NCBI GenBank assembly: GCA_017561085.1
Contig: JAFZDQ010000017.1
Span: 1 to 36,610, forward strand
Source: Lachnospiraceae bacterium
Lineage (GTDB): Bacteria; Bacillota; Clostridia; Lachnospirales; Lachnospiraceae
DNA: 36,610 nt
Reading direction: 5' to 3'
Of this stretch, positions 14,120 through 28,284 are shown one piece after another. Under the pieces are notes generated by a model. That model made no database searches, was not told the origin of the DNA, and saw only the letters and a list, made by a program, of their open reading frames with translations. Within the stretch, counting starts at the first letter, position 1, and each line of letters starts with the position of its first letter. A program made the position numbers and the translations under genes.

Positions 14120-15481
14120 ATGTTGGAAGAAAAGAAATACCTTAAATGGTATAACAAAGTAGGTTACGGTTCGGGTGACATTGCAGGAAATGTGGTATAT
14201 GCATTCCTTACATCCTTCGTAATGATTTATTTAACCGATACAATCGGGTTAAATGCAGGAGTTGTTGGTACATTGATTGCTGTTTCGAAATTGCTGGATG
14301 GTGTATCAGACATATTCTTTGGTTCGATGATTGATAAGACCAAGAGCAAGATGGGTAAGGCAAGACCCTGGATGTTCTATGGATTCTTTGGATGTGCACT
14401 TACATTGTTCGGTGTTTTTGCAATTCCCACTAATATGGGACAGACGGCACAGTATGCATGGTTCTTTATTGCCTATACTTTATTGAATGCAGTATTCTAT
14501 ACAGCTAATAATATTGCATATGCAGCACTGACATCACTTGTAACCAAGAACAGTAAAGAACGTGTAGAAATGGGTTCTTTCAGATTCATGTTCTCATTTG
14601 GTACAAACCTGTTAATCCAGTCAATTACCTTTGGAGCAGTTGAAGCTCTTGGCGGTGGAGCTGCAGGATGGAGAGCAATCGCAATTATTTATTGTATTGT
14701 AGGTATTATTACGAATACACTTTCCTGTTTCTCAGTTAAGGAGCTTTCAGATGAGGAACTTAGAGATGGAGAAGTTGTGGATGAAACAGATAACAAGCTT
14801 TCATTTGTGCAGACATTCAAGCTTCTTGTAACAAACAGATATTTTGTTATGATTTGTGTTATCTACATTCTTCAGCAGTTGCGTGCTGCAATGTTAAGTG
14901 TTGGCACCTATTTTATGACTTATGTACTGCTCAATCAAAAGATGTTTGGTGTTTTCTCATGGGCGATTAATATTCCGTTGATTCTGGCATTGATGATTAC
15001 ACCTACCTTGGTTGCTAAGGCAAAAGGAATGTATAAGGTAAATAAATACAGCTATATTTTTGCAACTGCCTGTCGTTTAGGAATTGTTGCTGCCGGATAT
15101 ATGGGAAGTATTCCTTTGATGCTGGTATTTACTATATTAACATCCCTTGGTGAAGGTCCTTGGCAGGGCGATGTGGGTGCGGTTATTGCTTCCTGTTCAG
15201 AGCATACATATCTTAAGACAGGAAAGCGAATTGATGGTTCCATGTTCTCCTGCACATCATTCGGAACAAAGCTTGGCGGTGGTATTGGTATTGCTCTTTC
15301 AGGATGGTTGCTTGATATGAGCGGATACATTAACAATGGAGCAGTTCAGCCGGATAGTTGTATCAGTATGATGAGCGTGATGTATCTTTGGTTACCGTTT
15401 GCATTTGACCTGATTATTACAGTTATTCTGTTCTTCTTAAATGTGGAAGGTGCTAATGAAAAGTTAAAAGAGAATAAATAG
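14120..15481 (+). CDS. GPH-family (MelB/LacS-type) sugar:cation symporter
   Basis: This 453-residue protein has about twelve membrane segments. The N-terminus carries the GPH signature (NKVGYGSGDIAGNVVYAF, then LLDGVSDIFFGSMIDKTKSKMGKARPWM), where the conserved Asp residues bind the coupling cation. It lacks the extra PTS EIIA-like domain of streptococcal LacS. Followed directly by lacL, lacM and Leloir genes, it is very probably the lactose (or other beta-galactoside) importer. AAGGAGG precedes the ATG. It is first in a long run of tightly spaced genes. Confidence 0.9.
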   Translation: MLEEKKYLKWYNKVGYGSGDIAGNVVYAFLTSFVMIYLTDTIGLNAGVVGTLIAVSKLLDGVSDIFFGSMIDKTKSKMGKARPWMFYGFFGCALTLFGVFAIPTNMGQTAQYAWFFIAYTLLNAVFYTANNIAYAALTSLVTKNSKERVEMGSFRFMFSFGTNLLIQSITFGAVEALGGGAAGWRAIAIIYCIVGIITNTLSCFSVKELSDEELRDGEVVDETDNKLSFVQTFKLLVTNRYFVMICVIYILQQLRAAMLSVGTYFMTYVLLNQKMFGVFSWAINIPLILALMITPTLVAKAKGMYKVNKYSYIFATACRLGIVAAGYMGSIPLMLVFTILTSLGEGPWQGDVGAVIASCSEHTYLKTGKRIDGSMFSCTSFGTKLGGGIGIALSGWLLDMSGYINNGAVQPDSCISMMSVMYLWLPFAFDLIITVILFFLNVEGANEKLKENK

Positions 15482-15489
15482 TTATCAAC

Positions 15490-15522
15490 GATAGCCTCTA
15501 GAGTATTCCTTTAGGGGCTATC
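15490..15522 (+). other. intercistronic hairpin between permease and lacL
   Basis: GATAGCCTCTA and TAGGGGCTATC (11 bp, one G-U) enclose an 11-base loop just ahead of the lacL RBS. No T run follows, so it is unlikely to terminate fully. It may protect an mRNA end or set relative expression of permease and enzyme. Confidence 0.55.
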
Positions 15523-15544
15523 AATAGAAAGTGAGGAATACGAG

Positions 15545-17446
15545 ATGAATGCAGATATTAGATGGCTTGATAATCCGGAAGTATTTAGAATAAATCAAAT
15601 GGCTGCACATAGCGATCATGATTACTATCTGAATTATGAAGATATGAGCAAGCAGAATCGGAAATTAACACAGTCCTTGAACGGACAGTGGAGCTTTTGC
15701 TTTAGCAAGAATGCAAAAAGCAGACCTGTTAATTTTTATGAGGAAGGTTACGATATCAGCGGTTTCGATAAAATTATGGTGCCGGGACATATTGAACTGG
15801 CAGGATATGACCAGATCCGATATATCAATACCATGTATCCATGGGAAGGAAAAGAATATCGTAGAGGGGCCTATTCATTGGATTGTGCGGGAAACGGAGC
15901 TGGAATGTTTAGTGAGGCAGAATACAATCCGGTTGGTTCTTACGTTACTAAGTTTGACTTAAATAGTGAACTTTGTGGGAAAAAAATTACCATTTGTTTT
16001 GAAGGTGTAGAACAGGCAATGTATCTGTGGTTGAATGGTAAGTTCGTAGGATACGCAGAAGACAGCTTTACACCGTCAGAATTCGATTTAACACCATATA
16101 TAAAAGAAAAAAATAATGTGTTAGCAGTTGAAGTGCACAAGATGTGTACAGCAGCTTTTCTGGAGGATCAGGATTTCTTCAGATTCTTCGGAATTTTTAG
16201 AAATGTATCCTTAAAGGCAATTCCGGACGTTCATGTAGAAGATATGTGGCTGAATCCGATTTTAAATCGTGACAATGAAAGCGGAAAGCTCGAGGCAACC
16301 ATTCGTGTATCAGCAGTAGCAAATAAAAAGGTAAATGCCCGAATCATTATGAAAGATATTGCTGGTTGCGAGGTGGTGAACAGTAAAATTGATTTGGAAG
16401 AGCATGATGATTATTTGACCGGTTTTGTGTCAACAGATATTAAGAATGTTATTAAGTGGGATAACCACAGTCCTTATCTTTATAAAACATTTATTGAAAT
16501 TACAGACGAGGATGGCGTTCTTTTAGAGGTTGTTCCTTACAAGGTTGGATTTAGAAGAATTGAGATTATTGATAAAGTAATGTATCTGAATGGAGAAAGA
16601 CTTGTAATTGTTGGAGTTAACAGACACGAGTGGAATCCGAAAACAGGTAGATGCATTAACATTGATGATATGATTTCTGATATGAATTGCATGAAGAGGA
16701 ACAATATCAATGCTGTCAGAACCTGTCATTATCCGGATCAGATTCCGTGGTATTACATGTGTGATGAAGCAGGTGTTTATGTTATGGCTGAGACAAACCT
16801 GGAAAGCCATGGTTCATGGCAGAAATTGGGAGCAGTTGAACCGTCCTGTAATGTGCCTGGTTCTCTGCCACAGTGGAGAGAGGTTGTAGTGGATCGTGCA
16901 AGAAGTAATTATGAGACTTTCAAGAACCATACTTCAATTTTGTTCTGGTCTTTAGGAAACGAATCCTATGCAGGAGACGATATTGAAGCGATGAACAAGT
17001 TCTTTAAGGATAAGAACGATGGCAGACTGGTTCATTATGAAGGTTCTTTCCATAACAGAGCATACGAAGATACGATTTCTGATATAGAAAGCCGTATGTA
17101 TGCAAAGCCTTATGAGATTGAGGAGTATTTAAGTGCTAATCCTAAGAAACCATATCTGTTATGTGAATATATGCATGACATGGGAAATTCACTTGGAGGA
17201 CTTGGTTCTTACATGAAGCTGATTGATAAATATGAAATGTATCAGGGTGGATTTATCTGGGATTTCATTGATCAGGCACTTTTAGTAAAAGATGAAGTTA
17301 CCGGAAGAGAAGTTCTCAGATACGGTGGCGATTTTGATGACAGACCTTCAGATTATGAGTTCTCCGGTAATGGAATTGTTTTTGCGGATAGAAGAGAGAA
17401 ACCGGCAATGCAGGAAGTGAGGTATTATTATGGAATGTACATCTAG
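15545..17446 (+). CDS. lacL: beta-galactosidase large subunit, GH2
   Basis: This 633-residue protein covers the sugar-binding, immunoglobulin-like and TIM-barrel parts of a GH2 beta-galactosidase, but not the C-terminal domain, which is the next gene. Motifs are GIFRNVSL, GVNRHEWNP, AVRTCHYPDQ, FWSLGNES with the acid/base Glu473, and LCEYMHDMGNS with the nucleophile Glu541. The length and the exact 17-base overlap with the small-subunit gene match the LacL/LacM heterodimers of lactic acid bacteria (known family feature), so this is a natural split, not a frameshift. There is no signal peptide. It hydrolyses imported lactose to glucose and galactose for GalK. Confidence 0.93.
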   Translation: MNADIRWLDNPEVFRINQMAAHSDHDYYLNYEDMSKQNRKLTQSLNGQWSFCFSKNAKSRPVNFYEEGYDISGFDKIMVPGHIELAGYDQIRYINTMYPWEGKEYRRGAYSLDCAGNGAGMFSEAEYNPVGSYVTKFDLNSELCGKKITICFEGVEQAMYLWLNGKFVGYAEDSFTPSEFDLTPYIKEKNNVLAVEVHKMCTAAFLEDQDFFRFFGIFRNVSLKAIPDVHVEDMWLNPILNRDNESGKLEATIRVSAVANKKVNARIIMKDIAGCEVVNSKIDLEEHDDYLTGFVSTDIKNVIKWDNHSPYLYKTFIEITDEDGVLLEVVPYKVGFRRIEIIDKVMYLNGERLVIVGVNRHEWNPKTGRCINIDDMISDMNCMKRNNINAVRTCHYPDQIPWYYMCDEAGVYVMAETNLESHGSWQKLGAVEPSCNVPGSLPQWREVVVDRARSNYETFKNHTSILFWSLGNESYAGDDIEAMNKFFKDKNDGRLVHYEGSFHNRAYEDTISDIESRMYAKPYEIEEYLSANPKKPYLLCEYMHDMGNSLGGLGSYMKLIDKYEMYQGGFIWDFIDQALLVKDEVTGREVLRYGGDFDDRPSDYEFSGNGIVFADRREKPAMQEVRYYYGMYI

Positions 17447-18383
17447 AAAATTAAGAGTAGTGTATGGCGATTATACCCTTGGCGTTCACGGAGAAGGTTT
17501 TGACTATATTTTTTCCTATGCACAGGGCGGTTTGGAGTCTATTGTAAAGAATGGGTATGAGTGGTTATACCGTTGCCCTAAGCCTACATTCTGGAGAGCT
17601 TTGACGGATAATGACAGAGGAAGCAAGTTCCATATTAAGAGTGGCAGTTGGCTTGCAGCAGACATGTTTATTGACTGCAAGGATGTAGAAGTTATTACAG
17701 ACGGAGTTTCACAGGGCAAACCGGTTGCACCGGAAAACAATAAATATGGTGCCGATGTATTTGCTGAAAATGTGATTGTAAAATACATTTATGAAACCAT
17801 CACAACTCCTATGACTACTGTAGAAGTGACATATAATGTTGCATCTAATGGGAAAATCACAGTAGATGTTCTGTATAAGGGTGCAAAAGGATTGCCGGAG
17901 CTTCCGGTATTTGGTTTACGGTTTATCATGCCTACTTTGGCTGATAAATATATGTATGAAGGACTTTCCGGAGAAACATATCCGGATCGCATGGCAGGAG
18001 GCGTAAAAGGGGTTTATGAGATAGATGACTTAAGTCTGACACCATATCTTGTGCCCCAGGAATGCGGTATGAGAATGGGTACCGATTGGCTTGAAGTGAC
18101 AAGACACACCAGTCTTAATAACAGCAGAAAAGACAATTCGGCACAGACATTAAGAATTGAAAAGAAGAATGATACATTTGCATTCTCCTGCCTTCCTTAT
18201 ACAGCAAGCGAGATTGAGAATGCAACACACCATGAGGAACTTCCGCCTGCAAGAAGAACGGTGCTTTGTGTATATGGTGCGGTAAGAGGTGTTGGTGGTA
18301 TTGACAGTTGGGGAAGTGATGTGGAAGAGGCATATCATATTAATGCAGAAGAAGATATCACATATTCCTTTGTGATTTGTTAG
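17430..18383 (+). CDS. lacM: beta-galactosidase small subunit
   Basis: This 317-residue protein corresponds to the C-terminal Bgal_small_N domain of LacZ (YDYTLGV-type opening, FSYAQGGLESIVKNGYEWL, PTFWRALTDNDRGSKFH, GLRFIMP, YPDRMAGG). In LacZ-type enzymes this domain completes the active-site pocket, so LacL needs it. GAGG lies 7 bases ahead of ATG 17430, within the end of lacL, so translation is coupled. The length equals that of known LacM proteins. Confidence 0.92.
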   Translation: MECTSRKLRVVYGDYTLGVHGEGFDYIFSYAQGGLESIVKNGYEWLYRCPKPTFWRALTDNDRGSKFHIKSGSWLAADMFIDCKDVEVITDGVSQGKPVAPENNKYGADVFAENVIVKYIYETITTPMTTVEVTYNVASNGKITVDVLYKGAKGLPELPVFGLRFIMPTLADKYMYEGLSGETYPDRMAGGVKGVYEIDDLSLTPYLVPQECGMRMGTDWLEVTRHTSLNNSRKDNSAQTLRIEKKNDTFAFSCLPYTASEIENATHHEELPPARRTVLCVYGAVRGVGGIDSWGSDVEEAYHINAEEDITYSFVIC

Positions 18384-18402
18384 AAAGAAATGAGGTGTTA
18401 GG

Positions 18403-19680
18403 ATGCAGACAGAAGTAATGATTAAGATGATTGAAAATGGTGAGTTAGACGATAGGTTATTAGATATCTATGTGGATGCTACGAAGCTTGTATACCAGAA
18501 GGGGCGTTATATTAACGCCATAAGATGTTTTGAAACATACTATGGAGCAAGTGATGTTAATATTTTCAGTGCACCGGGAAGAAGTGAGGTCGGTGGAAAT
18601 CATACGGACCACCAGCATGGAGAAGTTCTGGCTGCATCCATTAACCTTGATACAATAGCTGTGGTACGGGCAACTGAGGACAAGCAGATTAAGATTATAT
18701 CAGATGATTATGATGAAGTGGTTATTTCCTTGGATGATTTAGAAGCAAAAGAAGAGGAAAAAGAAACCACAATAGCATTAATAAAAGGTGTTCTGGCAGG
18801 TTTCGTGGAAGGTGGACATCAGATTGGCGGTTTTTGTGCCTATGCTACAAGTGATGTACTGATAGGTGCAGGACTTTCCTCTTCCGCAGCTTTTGAAACA
18901 TTAATCGGAACCATTCTCTCCGGTTTATATAACAATATGAGTGTTTCGCCGGTAGAAATTGCCATGATTGGACAGTATGCAGAGAATGTATATTTTGGAA
19001 AACCATGCGGTCTTATGGACCAGATGGCATGCTCGGTTGGAAATCTGGTCCATATTGATTTTGAGAATCCGAAAGATCCGAAGGTTGAGAAGCTGGACTT
19101 CAATATGAGCGAGCATGGTTACAGCTTATGTATTACAGATACGAAAGGTTCCCATGCGGACCTGACCGCTGAATATGCAGCAGTACCGCAGGAAATGAAG
19201 GCTGTAGCAAATTATTTTGGTAAGGAAGTTTTGCGCGATGTTACTTATGAGGAAGTTTTCAGAGAAATTGCAACACTTAGAAAGACTCTTGGCGACAGAA
19301 GCGTACTTAGAGCAGTGCATTTTCTGCGTGAAAATGAAAGAGTGGTAAAGGAAGTAAATGCTCTGAAGTGGGGCGATATGAATCTGTTTTTGGATAACGT
19401 AAAGGAGTCAGGAGATTCTTCCTTTAAGTATTTACAGAATGTGTATTCCAGTAATGATGTGGAAAACCAGAATATTTCAATCGCCTTGATGATGAGTGAT
19501 GTGTTGCTTAAGACGGAAGGTGTAAGCAGGGTTCATGGAGGCGGATTTGCCGGAACCATTCAAGCTTTTGTGAAAAATGATTTTGTAGCAAATTATAAGG
19601 AGAATATGGACCATATTTTTGGAGAAGGTTCTTGTAAAGATTTAAGAATCAGAAAATATGGTGGAATGAAAGTATTATAA
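18403..19680 (+). CDS. galK: galactokinase
   Basis: This 425-residue GHMP kinase has the galactokinase signature APGRSEVGGNHTDHQHGEVL near residue 50, the phosphate-binding loop IGAGLSSSAAFE, and the C-terminal VHGGGFAGTIQAFV. It phosphorylates galactose at C1 with ATP. It lies 19 bases after lacM and 16 bases before galE. At 425 residues it is somewhat longer than the common 390; the extra length is an N-terminal helix region before the signature. Confidence 0.93.
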   Translation: MQTEVMIKMIENGELDDRLLDIYVDATKLVYQKGRYINAIRCFETYYGASDVNIFSAPGRSEVGGNHTDHQHGEVLAASINLDTIAVVRATEDKQIKIISDDYDEVVISLDDLEAKEEEKETTIALIKGVLAGFVEGGHQIGGFCAYATSDVLIGAGLSSSAAFETLIGTILSGLYNNMSVSPVEIAMIGQYAENVYFGKPCGLMDQMACSVGNLVHIDFENPKDPKVEKLDFNMSEHGYSLCITDTKGSHADLTAEYAAVPQEMKAVANYFGKEVLRDVTYEEVFREIATLRKTLGDRSVLRAVHFLRENERVVKEVNALKWGDMNLFLDNVKESGDSSFKYLQNVYSSNDVENQNISIALMMSDVLLKTEGVSRVHGGGFAGTIQAFVKNDFVANYKENMDHIFGEGSCKDLRIRKYGGMKVL

Positions 19681-19696
19681 GAGGAGGATGTAAGCG

Positions 19697-20680
19697 ATGA
19701 GAATTTTAGTATTAGGCGGTGCCGGATATATCGGTTCACATACGGTTTATGAGTTGATTGATGCCGGACACGAAGTGATTGTAATTGATAATTTATTAAC
19801 AGGATTTAAGGCAGCGGTACATCCGAAAGCAAAGTTTTATGAAGGTGACATTAGAGATAAAGCGTTTTTGGACGAAGTTTTCAGCAATGAAAAAATCGAC
19901 GGAATTATTCATTTTGCCGCAAGTTCTCAAGTTGGAGAAAGTATGGTTGACCCGTTGAAATACTATAATAACAATCTGTGTGGTACAGAGATTTTGTTAG
20001 AGAGTATGGTAGAACATGGAATTGATAAGATTGTATTTTCCTCAACTGCTGCAACCTATGGTGAGCCGGAAAGTATTCCGATTTTGGAAACAGACAGGAC
20101 AGAACCTACCAATTGTTACGGAGAAACAAAGTTGTCCATGGAAAAGATGTTCAAATGGACATCGAAAGCACACAATTTAAGATATGTATCCTTAAGATAT
20201 TTTAATGCCTGTGGTGCCCATCCAAACGGATTGATTGGAGAAGCACATAATCCGGAGACACACTTGATTCCATTGATTTTACAGGTTCCAAATAGTAAAA
20301 GAGAATATATATCTATTTACGGAAATGATTATGACACAAAGGATGGCACTTGTGTAAGAGATTATATTCACGTAAATGATTTGGCGCAGGCACATATTCT
20401 TGCAATGGAATATCTGGCGAAGGGCGGAGAAAGTGATGTCTTTAATTTAGGCAATGGCGTAGGATTTACGGTTAAGGAAGTAATTGATGTGGCAAGGGAA
20501 GTTACCGGTCATTCCATTCCGGCAAAGGAAGAACCCAGAAGAGCAGGAGATCCATCTACACTGATTGCATCCAGTGCAAAAGCAAAGACGATTCTTGGCT
20601 GGAATCCGAAATATGCGGATTTGCATACGATTATTAAAACTGCATGGGAGTGGCATGTTAACCATCCAAGTGGATATTAG
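19697..20680 (+). CDS. galE: UDP-glucose 4-epimerase
   Basis: This 327-residue extended short-chain dehydrogenase has NAD-binding GGAGYIGSHTVYEL at the start, the catalytic Ser/Thr in FSSTAATYG, the YxxxK pair in NCYGETKLSMEKM, and RYFNACGAHPNG as in GalE. It interconverts UDP-galactose and UDP-glucose. GAGGAGG lies upstream of the ATG. It lies between galK and galT in the operon. Confidence 0.93.
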   Translation: MRILVLGGAGYIGSHTVYELIDAGHEVIVIDNLLTGFKAAVHPKAKFYEGDIRDKAFLDEVFSNEKIDGIIHFAASSQVGESMVDPLKYYNNNLCGTEILLESMVEHGIDKIVFSSTAATYGEPESIPILETDRTEPTNCYGETKLSMEKMFKWTSKAHNLRYVSLRYFNACGAHPNGLIGEAHNPETHLIPLILQVPNSKREYISIYGNDYDTKDGTCVRDYIHVNDLAQAHILAMEYLAKGGESDVFNLGNGVGFTVKEVIDVAREVTGHSIPAKEEPRRAGDPSTLIASSAKAKTILGWNPKYADLHTIIKTAWEWHVNHPSGY

Positions 20681-20702
20681 GATGGAAAAAGGAGGTTTTG
20701 GT

Positions 20703-22187
20703 ATGGATAAATTGATTTCAGAATTAGTAAGCTATGGAATTCAAAATGGACTGATAAATGTAGAAGATAAAACATATGTTGTAAACAGACTGTTAGAGGA
20801 GTTTGGAAAAAAGGATTTTACATGGAGTGAGGTGCCGGTAAGACCTATACATCAGATTCTTGAAGACATGATGTCTTACTCCATAGATATGGGCATCTTG
20901 GAGGATGATTCCATTACAATTAAGGATTTGTTTGATACCAAGATCATGGGATTGATTACACCCATGCCTTCGCAGGTAAGGGCACAGTTTAAGGAATTAT
21001 ATGCTGAAAATCCCAGACTTGCCACCCAATTTTATTATAAATTCAGTCAGGATACCAACTATATCCGGAGAGACAGAATTGTGAAAGATGAGAAGTGGAC
21101 CACGGATACAGAGTATGGACAGATTGATATTACCATTAATCTGTCTAAGCCGGAAAAAGATCCAAGAGATATAGCAAAGGCTGCTTCACAGAAGAAAAAT
21201 GACTATCCCAAGTGCCTGCTTTGTGAAGAAAACGAAGGATATGCCGGACATTTGAGTCACCCTGCAAGACAGAATCATAGAATCATTCCTGTGATGCTTG
21301 CAGGATGTGATTACTATTTTCAGTATTCACCTTATGTGTATTATAACGAGCACTGTATTGTATTTAATAAAGAGCACGTTCCTATGAAGATTGATAAAGA
21401 TGTGTTTAGGAAAATCCTTGATTTTGTGAGACAGTTTCCTCACTACATAGTAGGTTCTAATGCGGATCTGCCGATTGTTGGAGGCTCTATATTAAGTCAT
21501 GATCATTTCCAGGGAGGCTCTTATCAGTTTGCTATGGCAAAAGCTCCTTATGAGTATATGTTTAAGATAAACGGATATGAGGATGTAACAACAGGTATTG
21601 TAAAATGGCCCATGTCTGTTATTAGATTGCAAAGCGAGAGTATGGAGAGAATGGTGGAACTGTCGGATTGCATTTTAAAAGCATGGCGTGGATACACAGA
21701 TGAAGATGCATTTATCTTCAGTGAAACCAATGGCGAACCGCATAATACCATTACACCTATTGCGAGAATGAATGGTAATTTATATGAGATGGATTTAGTA
21801 CTTCGTAATAATATTACTACAAAAGAGAAGCCATGGGGCGTATATCATCCGGATGAGAAGCTTCATCATATCAAGAAAGAGAATATCGGTCTGATTGAAG
21901 TTATGGGACTGGCTATTTTGCCCGCACGATTGAAAAAGGAAATGGCTTTATTAGAAGAAGCTATTTTGGCAGGAAAAGATATAAGAGCAATTGAAGAAAT
22001 CGAAAAGCATGCAGATTGGGTAGAGCAGTGGCGTGATAATTATGACATCACTTCAGATAATATCAATCAGATACTCAAGGATGAAATCGCAAAGGTGTTC
22101 GTAGAGGTACTGGAATGTGCGGGTGTGTATAAGCGTACAGAGGAAGGGCAGAATGCATTTAAGCGATTTGTTTCTTCTTTAAAATAA
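20703..22187 (+). CDS. galT: UDP-glucose-hexose-1-phosphate uridylyltransferase, class II
   Basis: This 494-residue protein is of the Firmicutes class II GalT type, with motifs CLLCEENEGYAGHLSHPARQNHRIIPV and PIVGGSILSHDHFQGGSY (active-site His pair). I chose ATG 20703: AAGGAGG lies 7 bases upstream, and the protein starts MDKLISELVSYGI as in the family. A longer in-frame reading to 20565 would overlap galE by over 100 bases and is not supported. It transfers UMP from UDP-glucose to galactose-1-phosphate. Confidence 0.92.
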   Translation: MDKLISELVSYGIQNGLINVEDKTYVVNRLLEEFGKKDFTWSEVPVRPIHQILEDMMSYSIDMGILEDDSITIKDLFDTKIMGLITPMPSQVRAQFKELYAENPRLATQFYYKFSQDTNYIRRDRIVKDEKWTTDTEYGQIDITINLSKPEKDPRDIAKAASQKKNDYPKCLLCEENEGYAGHLSHPARQNHRIIPVMLAGCDYYFQYSPYVYYNEHCIVFNKEHVPMKIDKDVFRKILDFVRQFPHYIVGSNADLPIVGGSILSHDHFQGGSYQFAMAKAPYEYMFKINGYEDVTTGIVKWPMSVIRLQSESMERMVELSDCILKAWRGYTDEDAFIFSETNGEPHNTITPIARMNGNLYEMDLVLRNNITTKEKPWGVYHPDEKLHHIKKENIGLIEVMGLAILPARLKKEMALLEEAILAGKDIRAIEEIEKHADWVEQWRDNYDITSDNINQILKDEIAKVFVEVLECAGVYKRTEEGQNAFKRFVSSLK

Positions 22188-22220: not shown

Positions 22221-23021
22221 ATGTATCCTTCGTATGAAACAAGAAGTAAGGAAATTGCTTACGAATATAAAGATTCCGTGCATGTACCACCACATTTGCA
22301 TGAAGCAATTGAGGTGGTTTATGTAACAAAGGGAAGCGTAGAACTAGGTGTAGGACAAAATCTATACCATTTGAATGAAGGTGATTTAGGGGTTGTATTT
22401 CCGAATGTTATTCATCACTATCAGGTTTTTTCAAAAGGAGAAAATAAGGCAATATATTTGTTTATCGCCCCTTCTTTATTTACAGGATTTTTGGACGATT
22501 TTAAATTGTACTGTCCAGAAAATCCTGTAATAGCGAAGCAAAATCTTCAAAGGGACATTGTATCTGCTGTTAAGATGCTTACTCAAATAGAGGATGAGAA
22601 CTCTATTATGGGTCACGCTTATGCACAAATAATACTTGCGTATGTATTCACAACCGTGAAATTGGTAGAGAAGGATTCGGTTACGGAAAATAATCTAATT
22701 ACGAATGCTGTATCATACGTAGCTGCGAATTTCAGAGAAAGTATATCTCTTGAAAAGATGGCACGGGATTTAGGAGTAAGTAAATACGTTCTTTCCCGTA
22801 TGTTTGCTAAAACTTTTCACTGTAATTTTTGTAAATATATAAATAAAACGAGACTTAATTATGTGGTTTCTTATTTAGAAAATACAAATATATCAATTAC
22901 CGAATTATGCTTGGAGTGTGGCTTTGATAGTCAGAGAACTTTTAATCGGGTTTTTAAAGAAGAATATAAAATGACACCAAGAGAATATCGAAAACGATTA
23001 ACAATAATTAATAGGGCTTGA
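22221..23021 (+). CDS. second AraC-family regulator
   Basis: This 266-residue protein has a cupin domain (about 20-85; HVPPHLHEAIEVVYVTKGSVELGVG, GDLGVVFPNVIHHYQ) and a C-terminal double HTH (about 165-262; ISLEKMARDLGVSKYVLSRMFAK and ITELCLECGFDSQRTFNRVFKEEYKMTPREYRKR). AGAGGAG precedes the ATG. It sits 33 bases after galT as the last gene of the lac/gal run, so it is probably cotranscribed. It may adjust this operon or a related one. Its HTH differs clearly from the AraC at 13063, so it need not share the 36-bp site. Confidence 0.88.
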   Translation: MYPSYETRSKEIAYEYKDSVHVPPHLHEAIEVVYVTKGSVELGVGQNLYHLNEGDLGVVFPNVIHHYQVFSKGENKAIYLFIAPSLFTGFLDDFKLYCPENPVIAKQNLQRDIVSAVKMLTQIEDENSIMGHAYAQIILAYVFTTVKLVEKDSVTENNLITNAVSYVAANFRESISLEKMARDLGVSKYVLSRMFAKTFHCNFCKYINKTRLNYVVSYLENTNISITELCLECGFDSQRTFNRVFKEEYKMTPREYRKRLTIINRA

Positions 23022-23082: not shown

Positions 23083-23111
23083 TCATATCCCCTCAGCGTA
23101 CTTCATACAAT
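23083..23111 (+). promoter_or_regulatory. sigma-E-like promoter of spoIIID
   Basis: CATACAAT at 23104-23111 is the consensus mother-cell sigma-E -10 box, and TCATATC upstream is a fair -35; the spacing is 14 bases. Bacillus spoIIID is a sigma-E gene (established), so this fits. Initiation would be near 23117-23120. Confidence 0.65.
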
Positions 23112-23134
23112 GTAAAAAAGTATTCTGAGGGGAT
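23087..23134 (+). other. inverted repeat that can sequester the spoIIID SD
   Basis: ATCCCCTCAG (23087-23096) pairs with CTGAGGGGAT (23125-23134). A further 5 bp (TACTT/AAGTA) pair inside after a 2x2 mismatch. The right arm contains the GAGGGG SD of spoIIID. The left arm lies upstream of the predicted sigma-E start, so only read-through RNA would form the hairpin. Confidence 0.7.
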
Positions 23135-23139
23135 TTCCT

Positions 23140-23400
23140 TTGAAAGATTATATTGAAGAGCGAGCAATGAACATTGCCAACTATATTATTGAAAACAATG
23201 CAACCGTACGTCAGACCGCTAAGGCATTCGGTATCAGTAAATCCACAGTACACAAAGACGTCACCGAGCGTCTTATGCAGGTCAATCCGACCCTTGCCAG
23301 GGACGCCAGGAAGGTGCTTGATATCAATAAATCAGAGCGTCACATCCGCGGTGGTCTGGCCACCAGGGAAAAGTACCTGCACAGGCAGGAATTTACATAA
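23140..23400 (+). CDS. spoIIID: sporulation transcriptional regulator SpoIIID
   Basis: This 86-residue protein is clearly SpoIIID-like from end to end: MKDYIEERAMNIANYI, the HTH TVRQTAKAFGISKSTVHKDV, TERL, and the basic tail SERHIRGGLATREKYLH. In Bacillus it acts in the mother cell after sigma-E, activating and repressing many sporulation genes. It starts with TTG at 23140 (GAGGGG SD 6-7 bases upstream); no ATG fits the conserved N-terminus. The length is close to the 93 residues of B. subtilis SpoIIID. Confidence 0.93.
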   Translation: MKDYIEERAMNIANYIIENNATVRQTAKAFGISKSTVHKDVTERLMQVNPTLARDARKVLDINKSERHIRGGLATREKYLHRQEFT

Positions 23401-27123: not shown

Positions 27124-27160
27124 GTATTGATTTAGTATGAAAAGACAGAAAAATAAAAAT

Positions 27161-27193
27161 AAGCATGGCAGGGAAACTGTCATGCTTGTTTTT
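27161..27193. terminator. terminator between convergent aminotransferase and LuxR genes
   Basis: AAGCATGGCAG / CTGTCATGCTT (11 bp, one G-U) has A-rich sequence on the left and a T run on the right, so it suits both strands. Confidence 0.85.
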
Positions 27194-27195
27194 GA

Positions 27196-28284
27196 TTAAT
27201 AATTAATTTTCTGGGCTATTGACACCAACTGTTTTCTGGAAGAAACACCTAATTTACCGTAAATGTTTTTGTTGTGGAATTTTAGAGTATTTTCCTTGAT
27301 GTTTAGCATTACCATAATTTCCTTGGTGGATTTTTGATCCAGATAGAAACGAAAGATGGAAAGCTCTGTTGGTGTAAGGGATGCAATGCCGGCAATAAAT
27401 TGGTTATACATTTCCTCATCTGTTGAAGGAATTGTAGTGTCAGCCGTCAAAGTGCTGCTGGGGTTATCCGGACTTTGGACGGGCAATAGTTCATCCGTGA
27501 TGTTAATGTTGTCGCTTGTACCGATGTTCGTTATCCGGCGGGCTTGTTCTTTTAACAGTATATGCAGACCAAGTAGGAACATTTCGGTGATAACATAGGA
27601 AACAGAAAGAATTTCAAAGTTAATATCTACGAACTGCTCCATCAGCCAAACTCCGATATTTACAAAAACTGCAATAGTCAGAATAGCAGCATGACCGGTG
27701 GATTCCAGTCGTTTTTGGGCAATGCTGTACGCAATTGCAACAATCATCAGACCAAAATAACTAAACAGGTAAATATAGTACAGAAAATGCCAGGGACCGT
27801 ATATTTTTTGCAGCGTGGAGACGCCGTCCAGGATTTCTAAAGATACTTCCCGGTAGTAGATATCCAGGTACCCGGGGGTTATAGCGATGAAAAGCACGAA
27901 AGCACTAAAACATATAAGTAGCAGGGTCCCCCATTTTCGTGACTTTACTTTACATACATTCAAAATAATCATGAGCATGGATAAGGGCAGGCAAACAGAG
28001 CCTAAATAAGAAATTCGGTTTGCCCAAAGTGCTTCTGCCAGTGTACTTGAAACCGCAAGAGCCAAATAGCCCACATTCACAATTAATACAGATGAAAATA
28101 ATGCAAGAAACCAAGGCTCCTTCTTTATTGTCAGGCAGCAATATAAAACCAGTAAAAGCAAAGAAAAAACTGCCATAATACCATAGATAATGGAAAGGCC
28201 GACTGCTTTTCCTTCTATGGTGTTGCAACCTGCTAATAAAAACAGAAATAGCAGAGACGAAAAAGTTATCAACAATTTCTTCAT
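27196..28284 (-). CDS. 7-TM-type membrane sensor fused to a LuxR helix-turn-helix
   Basis: This 362-residue protein begins with MKKLLITFSSLLFLFLLAGC, a lipobox-like LAGC with Cys20. About seven hydrophobic segments follow (to about residue 230), in the style of the HisKA_7TM sensor domain. Instead of a kinase, the C-terminus (about 300-360) is a LuxR-type HTH (LTPTELSIFRFYLDQKSTKEIMVMLNI, NTLKFHNKNIYGKLGVSSRKQLV). This makes it a one-component membrane-bound transcription factor. I chose 28284 because GGAG lies 7-8 bases upstream and it gives a proper signal; the longer frame to 28347 has no RBS. It diverges from the repeat-protein gene at 28485, its likely target, across a palindrome-rich gap. 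Confidence 0.8.
   Translation of the reverse strand: MKKLLITFSSLLFLFLLAGCNTIEGKAVGLSIIYGIMAVFSLLLLVLYCCLTIKKEPWFLALFSSVLIVNVGYLALAVSSTLAEALWANRISYLGSVCLPLSMLMIILNVCKVKSRKWGTLLLICFSAFVLFIAITPGYLDIYYREVSLEILDGVSTLQKIYGPWHFLYYIYLFSYFGLMIVAIAYSIAQKRLESTGHAAILTIAVFVNIGVWLMEQFVDINFEILSVSYVITEMFLLGLHILLKEQARRITNIGTSDNINITDELLPVQSPDNPSSTLTADTTIPSTDEEMYNQFIAGIASLTPTELSIFRFYLDQKSTKEIMVMLNIKENTLKFHNKNIYGKLGVSSRKQLVSIAQKINY

Follow-up and report, generated by a model that had tools for sequence, protein, structure and literature searches.

How could spoIIID, the gene for a mother-cell regulator, stay silent when a cluster of sugar-utilization genes lies upstream and points the same way? The question arises from the 36,610-nt stretch of Lachnospiraceae DNA analysed here (the window). 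The 86-residue ORF starting at 23140 is SpoIIID (PF12116, 142.8 bits with a cutoff of 27; TIGR02844, 133.2 bits with a cutoff of 111.5). From 14120 through spoIIID all genes run in one direction: a transporter, the β-galactosidase chains, galK, galE, galT, an AraC-type regulator and spoIIID itself. A simple scan of the + strand between 22000 and 23500 found no terminator-like site (with loops capped at 8, it would not see the hairpin described below), and the interval from the AraC gene to the spoIIID promoter gave no separate terminator either. Read-through from the lac/gal cluster into spoIIID is thus plausible. Leaky SpoIIID in growing cells would likely be harmful, because SpoIIID helps switch the mother-cell programme. 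The initial annotation had placed a lac/gal operon upstream, and the cluster is indeed present in the window, but the link is local: the upstream neighbour varies among congeners, an assessment made from the lengths and directions of ORFs alone.

Two observations concern the surroundings of the locus. The β-galactosidase at 15545–18383 is encoded by two overlapping ORFs (large, 633 residues; small, 317 residues), an arrangement that we take to resemble LacL/LacM. An 18-bp hairpin at 27151–27197 (−23.5 kcal/mol) lies between two converging genes, has T-rich sequence 3′ of it on the + strand, and is likely a two-way terminator.

The features of the locus are as follows (A1 and A2 are two sets of leaders from relatives, defined below).
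14120..22187, + strand: lactose/galactose cluster (sugar transporter, β-galactosidase large and small chains, galK, galE, galT), the presumed source of read-through
22221..23021, + strand: AraC-family regulator, the last upstream gene, co-directional with spoIIID (ORF and profile)
23083..23090, + strand: −35 element TCATATCC, by match to the σE consensus; GTCATAA at this place in the A1 consensus
23087..23103, + strand: left arm of the hairpin (outer part 23087–23096, inner part 23098–23103), overlapping the −35 element and spacer, 5′ of the predicted start
23103..23112, + strand: −10 element TCATACAATG, in the hairpin loop, by match to the σE consensus; CATA invariant in A1 and A2
23118, + strand: predicted transcription start, 7 nt past CATACAAT, placed from the −10 position
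23118..23134, + strand: right arm of the hairpin (inner part 23118–23123, outer part 23125–23134), kept in the gene's own transcript
23127..23132, + strand: Shine-Dalgarno (SD) sequence GAGGGG, inside the right arm, from the sequence and the SD-opening analysis
23134..23141, + strand: T-rich spacer from the SD into the TTG; possible weak terminator tail (terminator score −16, under the threshold)
23140..23400, + strand: spoIIID, sporulation transcription factor with a TTG start, by SpoIIID profiles

The promoter of spoIIID is enclosed by an inverted repeat. The initial annotation had paired ATCCCCTCAG (23087–23096) with CTGAGGGGAT (23125–23134) around a σE-like −10 box, and its coordinates are exact. 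These outer 10 bp are real, but the stem is longer: beyond a C97/U124 mismatch, a further six pairs, one of them G-U, join 23098–23103 with 23118–23123, so that 16 of 17 positions pair between 23087–23103 and 23118–23134. The left arm covers the end of the −35 element and the spacer, the −10 element lies within the loop, and the SD is in the right arm. The σE consensus of Bacillus subtilis is given as TYATATTT / KCATANANTN in the excerpted text of PMC3416734. The −35 element matches it at 6 of 8 positions and the −10 element at every fixed position. The −10 core CATACAAT occupies 23104–23111; in 199 of 213 leaders the −10 box begins 33–40 nt 5′ of the start codon. RNA spanning 23087–23146 has a predicted folding energy of −22.5 kcal/mol (z −6.1), and none of 200 shuffled sequences was equally stable.

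The rarity of such a stem was considered as evidence and dropped, since stems of 17 bp with one mismatch or none are common by chance in 36 kb: the window holds 25 rows of them (9 distinct places), compared with 6–12 rows in six shuffled versions. The hairpin is judged to be beyond chance because of its position and conservation, not because of the stem alone. The window gave no Rfam 15 match at the gathering score and no match in the plasmid collection.

The arrangement suggests how one leader could serve two kinds of transcript. RNA entering from the upstream co-directional genes would carry both arms, fold into the 16-bp hairpin and yield little SpoIIID. σE polymerase would start near 23118, where the right arm begins; its transcript would therefore keep the right arm only and would be translatable. 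Since the gene's own RNA would lack the left arm and read-through RNA would have both, translation would depend on the promoter used, and the mother-cell regulator would be insulated from vegetative read-through. Two defining features of promoter-dependent SD-sequestering leaders are found here: an SD placed in a helix by the predicted fold, and an internal promoter whose inferred start lies 3′ of the left arm. We consider it probable that promoter choice decides spoIIID translation in this way, with the start site, the read-through and the effect on translation being what we infer; the basis consists of the sequence, predicted folds, conservation, co-variation and a link with upstream gene direction.

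In predicted folds, opening the SD costs 20.3 kcal/mol in the read-through RNA of the window and 6.1 kcal/mol in the RNA starting at 23118. The initial annotation had called the SD of the latter free; the cost does fall steeply, but the SD is not fully free and the word was too strong. The residual cost of about 6.1 kcal/mol reflects the weak pairing that GAGGG can form with UCCUU a short way downstream.

To examine this property across relatives, spoIIID leaders were gathered from same-genus genomes, from GTDB contigs titled mainly Lachnospiraceae, and from same-family genomes at about one per genus. The 219 loci included 214 with a recognised N-terminus and 202 distinct leaders, of which 191 were analysed after 3 were dropped for contig ends and 8 because a −10 was missing within 60 nt. 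The energy needed to open the SD hexamer was computed for three RNAs per leader: one extended by 50 nt 5′ of the predicted start, one beginning at that start, and the extended one with its upstream half shuffled. The median costs were 10.9, 4.0 and 5.5 kcal/mol, respectively. At least 57 of 60 upstream-half shuffles were beaten by 128 of the 191 leaders, and all 60 by 93; the corresponding counts were 35 and 13 for 420 starts of other genes at the same loci. The remaining 63 spoIIID leaders fail this test. Within the genus, 24 of 27 leaders pass, including that of the window, and the other three fall narrowly short (4–5 of 60 shuffles), so that the loss of complementarity in close relatives that would have spoken against the initial annotation is mostly not seen. 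Hairpins of this kind are not unique to spoIIID. Among 969 gene-like starts on a 1.08-Mb contig from a genome of the genus, hairpins that hide the SD as strongly as at spoIIID fall in the top 1–2%; that genome's spoIIID ranks 14th, and a difference of at least 12 kcal/mol occurs at 3 of the 969 starts (the window value is 14.1).

The hairpin occurs in two geometries. Its centre lies either about −8 from the start, with the left arm on the −35/spacer region as in the window, or about −2, with the left arm on the −10 box. Both are found in close relatives; one leader of the same genus (L009) is shifted towards the −10 flank. Set A1 comprises 42 of the 53 leaders with a centre at −8 plus L009, L034 and L067, and set A2 comprises 65 of the 97 with a centre at −2. 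Cells altered on both sides with pairing retained number 26 in A1 and 31 in A2, compared with 13.2 and 13.3 after shuffling (0 of 500 shuffles in each case), although these counts lean towards pairing because the members were picked by eye for a common geometry. The number of pairs ever altered on both sides is not clearly above shuffles (A1, 5 versus 4.6; A2, 7 versus 5.5, 88 of 500), and a wobble asymmetry favouring the plus-strand RNA is mild and significant in A2 only. The shuffle test and the gene-start and orientation counts are independent of the choice of A1 and A2. The arm-swap comparison used all 53 and 97 leaders: set against the average fit of left arms taken from other genomes of its class, a leader's own left arm matches its right arm better in 40 of 53 (−8) and 81 of 97 (−2). 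Hiding of the SD in read-through RNA, as originally proposed, is supported by predicted folds, shuffles, co-variation and arm-swaps.

An insulating hairpin would be expected to be weaker at loci whose upstream gene is divergent. Leaders pass the shuffle test in 102 of 134 loci with a co-directional upstream gene and in 21 of 51 with a divergent one; 32 of 134 co-directional leaders thus fail. Six of the 191 leaders, whose upstream ORF was missing or more than 600 nt away, are left out of this test. In phylogenetically independent pairs, the co-directional member is higher in 28 of 42 (one-sided Wilcoxon, p 0.003), with heuristic ORF calls that include some short ORFs and a spoIIID gene tree of 240 nt sites. 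These comparisons give good but not final grounds to believe that hairpin strength follows upstream direction.

The same structure could act on transcription. The hairpin might mainly be an intrinsic terminator of the upstream operon, with a T-rich tail running into the TTG. Insulation would then be transcriptional, and RNA started within the hairpin would likewise lack the terminator. The T fraction of the SD-to-start spacer is 0.57 in hairpin leaders, 0.40–0.46 in those without a hairpin and 0.24 in 437 control starts; TTG is the start codon in 142 of 191 leaders. Immediately 3′ of the G run, the T fraction is 0.68 with a hairpin and 0.53 without (p 2e-5). With its T-rich spacer and TTG start, the hairpin therefore looks terminator-like in some relatives, its tail extending into the start codon. 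By a terminator score with provisional coefficients, 24 of 128 hairpin leaders, 1 of 63 others and 5 of 1146 shuffled sequences exceed 0, and scores are slightly higher in co-directional loci (p 0.04). A separate terminator is found in 5 of 27 co-directional loci without a hairpin, compared with 6 of 96 with one (p 0.06). On the other hand, 104 of 128 hairpin leaders score under the threshold, as does the window, where the T-tract stem test with tail TTTCCTTTG gives −16, and the T fraction is alike in co-directional (0.64) and divergent (0.60) loci (p 0.35). Given the window's score and the 24 of 128 leaders that pass, SD hiding is put first and termination is regarded as a second layer in a minority; that termination is the main function appears unlikely. 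The insulator proposed at the outset, with promoter-dependent translation, is partly supported by the comparative tests, including the two geometries and the co-directional contrast, with the amendment that termination may contribute in some relatives.

A palindrome over a promoter could also be a DNA operator, or an autoregulatory site for SpoIIID, with the RNA pairing incidental. SpoIIID of B. subtilis acts on its own promoter. The arms overlap the −35 element, the spacer and, in other relatives, the −10 box, and some relatives carry AAAAACAAGT after the −10, which fits a SpoIIID consensus. A protein site would be expected to conserve letters, however, whereas the arms co-vary and still pair, the two geometries place the left arm about 8–10 nt apart relative to the promoter, and hairpin strength tracks upstream gene direction; by eye, the leader in the window lacks the SpoIIID motif beside its start site. 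We regard an operator as quite improbable. Still less probable, and already disfavoured, is chance complementarity combined with shared ancestry and no function. Stems of this size do arise by chance in a 36-kb window, the congeners are related and 63 of 191 leaders fail, but the shuffle tests, gene-start controls, co-variation, independent pairs and arm-swaps all argue against it, as do a second gene with the same layout (a PdaB-like deacetylase, below) and a separate case, L266, in another family of the class.

Translational insulation by promoter choice is an established mechanism in phage T4 gene e, and has been proposed for B. subtilis sigG. According to the excerpted text of PMC3014915, long early RNAs of gene e fold and hide the ribosome binding site, giving about 100-fold less lysozyme, while late promoters just 5′ of that site produce RNA in which the 5′ portion of the fold is missing. 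The gene e leader, like those of soc, 49 and I-TevI, shows, in that excerpt, the same promoter-dependent hiding as proposed here; it differs in being a phage gene whose late promoters are read with the phage sigma factor gp55 and in timing lysis rather than sporulation. In B. subtilis, a large leader hairpin of sigG (spoIIIG) was proposed to act against read-through from PspoIIG (excerpted text of PMC5942855). Like spoIIID, sigG encodes a sporulation regulator, but its product is a forespore sigma factor and it follows a single named operon, whereas spoIIID here is a mother-cell gene with varying neighbours and two arm positions. A closer parallel in gene identity is usd, upstream of spoIIID in B. 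subtilis and needed for spoIIID translation (excerpted text of PMC4474612, citing Decatur 1997). There too, as far as that excerpt goes, the leader controls translation of the same gene, but through a small upstream ORF in the σE transcript; the predicted leader here, about 22 nt, is too short for a usd-like ORF. Intrinsic terminators share a GC-rich stem and T-rich tail with 24 of 128 hairpin leaders; the spoIIID hairpin differs in its long loop holding the promoter and, in the window, in its score under the threshold. Among the titles listed by open-licence literature searches, none reported this promoter-in-hairpin arrangement at spoIIID. What seems new is the family-wide spread, the two geometries and the link with neighbour direction.

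The modelled cost of SD opening in the gene's own transcript (family median 4.0 kcal/mol; 6.1 in the window) compares with a median of 1.3 kcal/mol for control gene starts. The value of 6.1 together with the TTG start suggests that translation may be damped even from spoIIID's own promoter; such a damping effect was shown for a small leader hairpin of sigG in B. subtilis (excerpted text of PMC5942855).

The −10-in-hairpin layout is also seen at other places. Covariance models of both geometries, run over 20 genomes (the window's own and relatives), matched spoIIID leaders and other places. Of six such places examined (L298–L301, L303 and L304), four have a −10 in the hairpin; the script found no −10 match in L303 and L304. 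In the window's own genome, one hairpin-promoter place precedes an interrupted PdaB-like polysaccharide deacetylase gene (TIGR02764, 145 bits with a cutoff of 237). Of 32 candidate deacetylase loci, 21 were tested, the rest having no motif, start or SD; 9 of the 21 leaders pass at no more than 5 of 100 shuffles, 7 of them at 0, with starts chosen by best SD and in some cases uncertain. Most spoIIID leaders from beyond the family lack the hairpin: 9 of 56 pass at no more than 3 of 60 shuffles, 5 at 0, with a median z of −0.02. This set derives from 69 loci (L220–L288), of which 8 were unrecognised by the start pattern, 3 lacked a start codon at the expected place, one (L243) repeats a same-family genome and one (L230) is at a contig end. 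A few separate cases do occur there, among them L266, which has a 16-bp stem around the −10, directly 5′ of the start codon. SD-hiding leader hairpins are also seen at other genes of a same-genus contig, G003:C11, for example at 77824, 106048, 334559 and 166259 (all − strand). By eye, some of these have promoter-like elements between the arms, and one ORF looks like SpoVAD; these genes are possible further insulated promoters.

Several same-genus genomes carry spoIIID in two pieces; in the N-terminal pieces observed, the break follows the SKSTVH codons. G005:C13 (L401) and G020:C80 (L402) have the two pieces on a single contig, 4–9 kb apart, and a large serine recombinase lies beside the C-terminal piece (confirmed by Pfam in L402, by likeness in L401). 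The pieces are on different contigs in G010 (L409) and G018 (L412); G026 (L403), G033 and G035 (L416) have an intact spoIIID and one extra piece, and G016 (L415) has the N-terminal piece only. The N-terminal pieces of L401, L402, L403, L409, L412 and L415 retain the leader hairpin. The split looks like a skin-type element in the gene; genes named as so interrupted in the literature excerpts consulted are sigK, spsM, spoVFB, gerE and yabG. The PdaB-like gene of the window's genome is likewise in two pieces, G000:C5:11218–11871 and 15801–16058 (L400), about 3.9 kb apart. Between them lie a serine recombinase (L400:3194–4690, Pfam) and an ORF resembling, by eye, a restriction endonuclease.

A promoter-dependent hairpin would let spoIIID live downstream of active sugar operons. 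For Lachnospiraceae-type spore formers the wider proposition, to which we give an even chance, is a general device: σE promoters set in SD-sequestering, partly terminator-like hairpins, letting a developmental gene stay silent behind any vegetative operon. Such hairpins would have been assembled on repeated occasions, their 5′ arm covering either the −35/spacer or the −10. They would serve spoIIID and at least the PdaB-like deacetylase gene, and would relax when the upstream neighbour turns away. The contrast between co-directional and divergent loci would then offer a natural experiment on what transcriptional read-through costs under selection. If true, this would explain how spoIIID sits beside varying neighbours in the family and would provide a simple sequence signature by which further insulated developmental genes could be found; growth-phase RNA-seq reads over such genes would then not in themselves mean protein.
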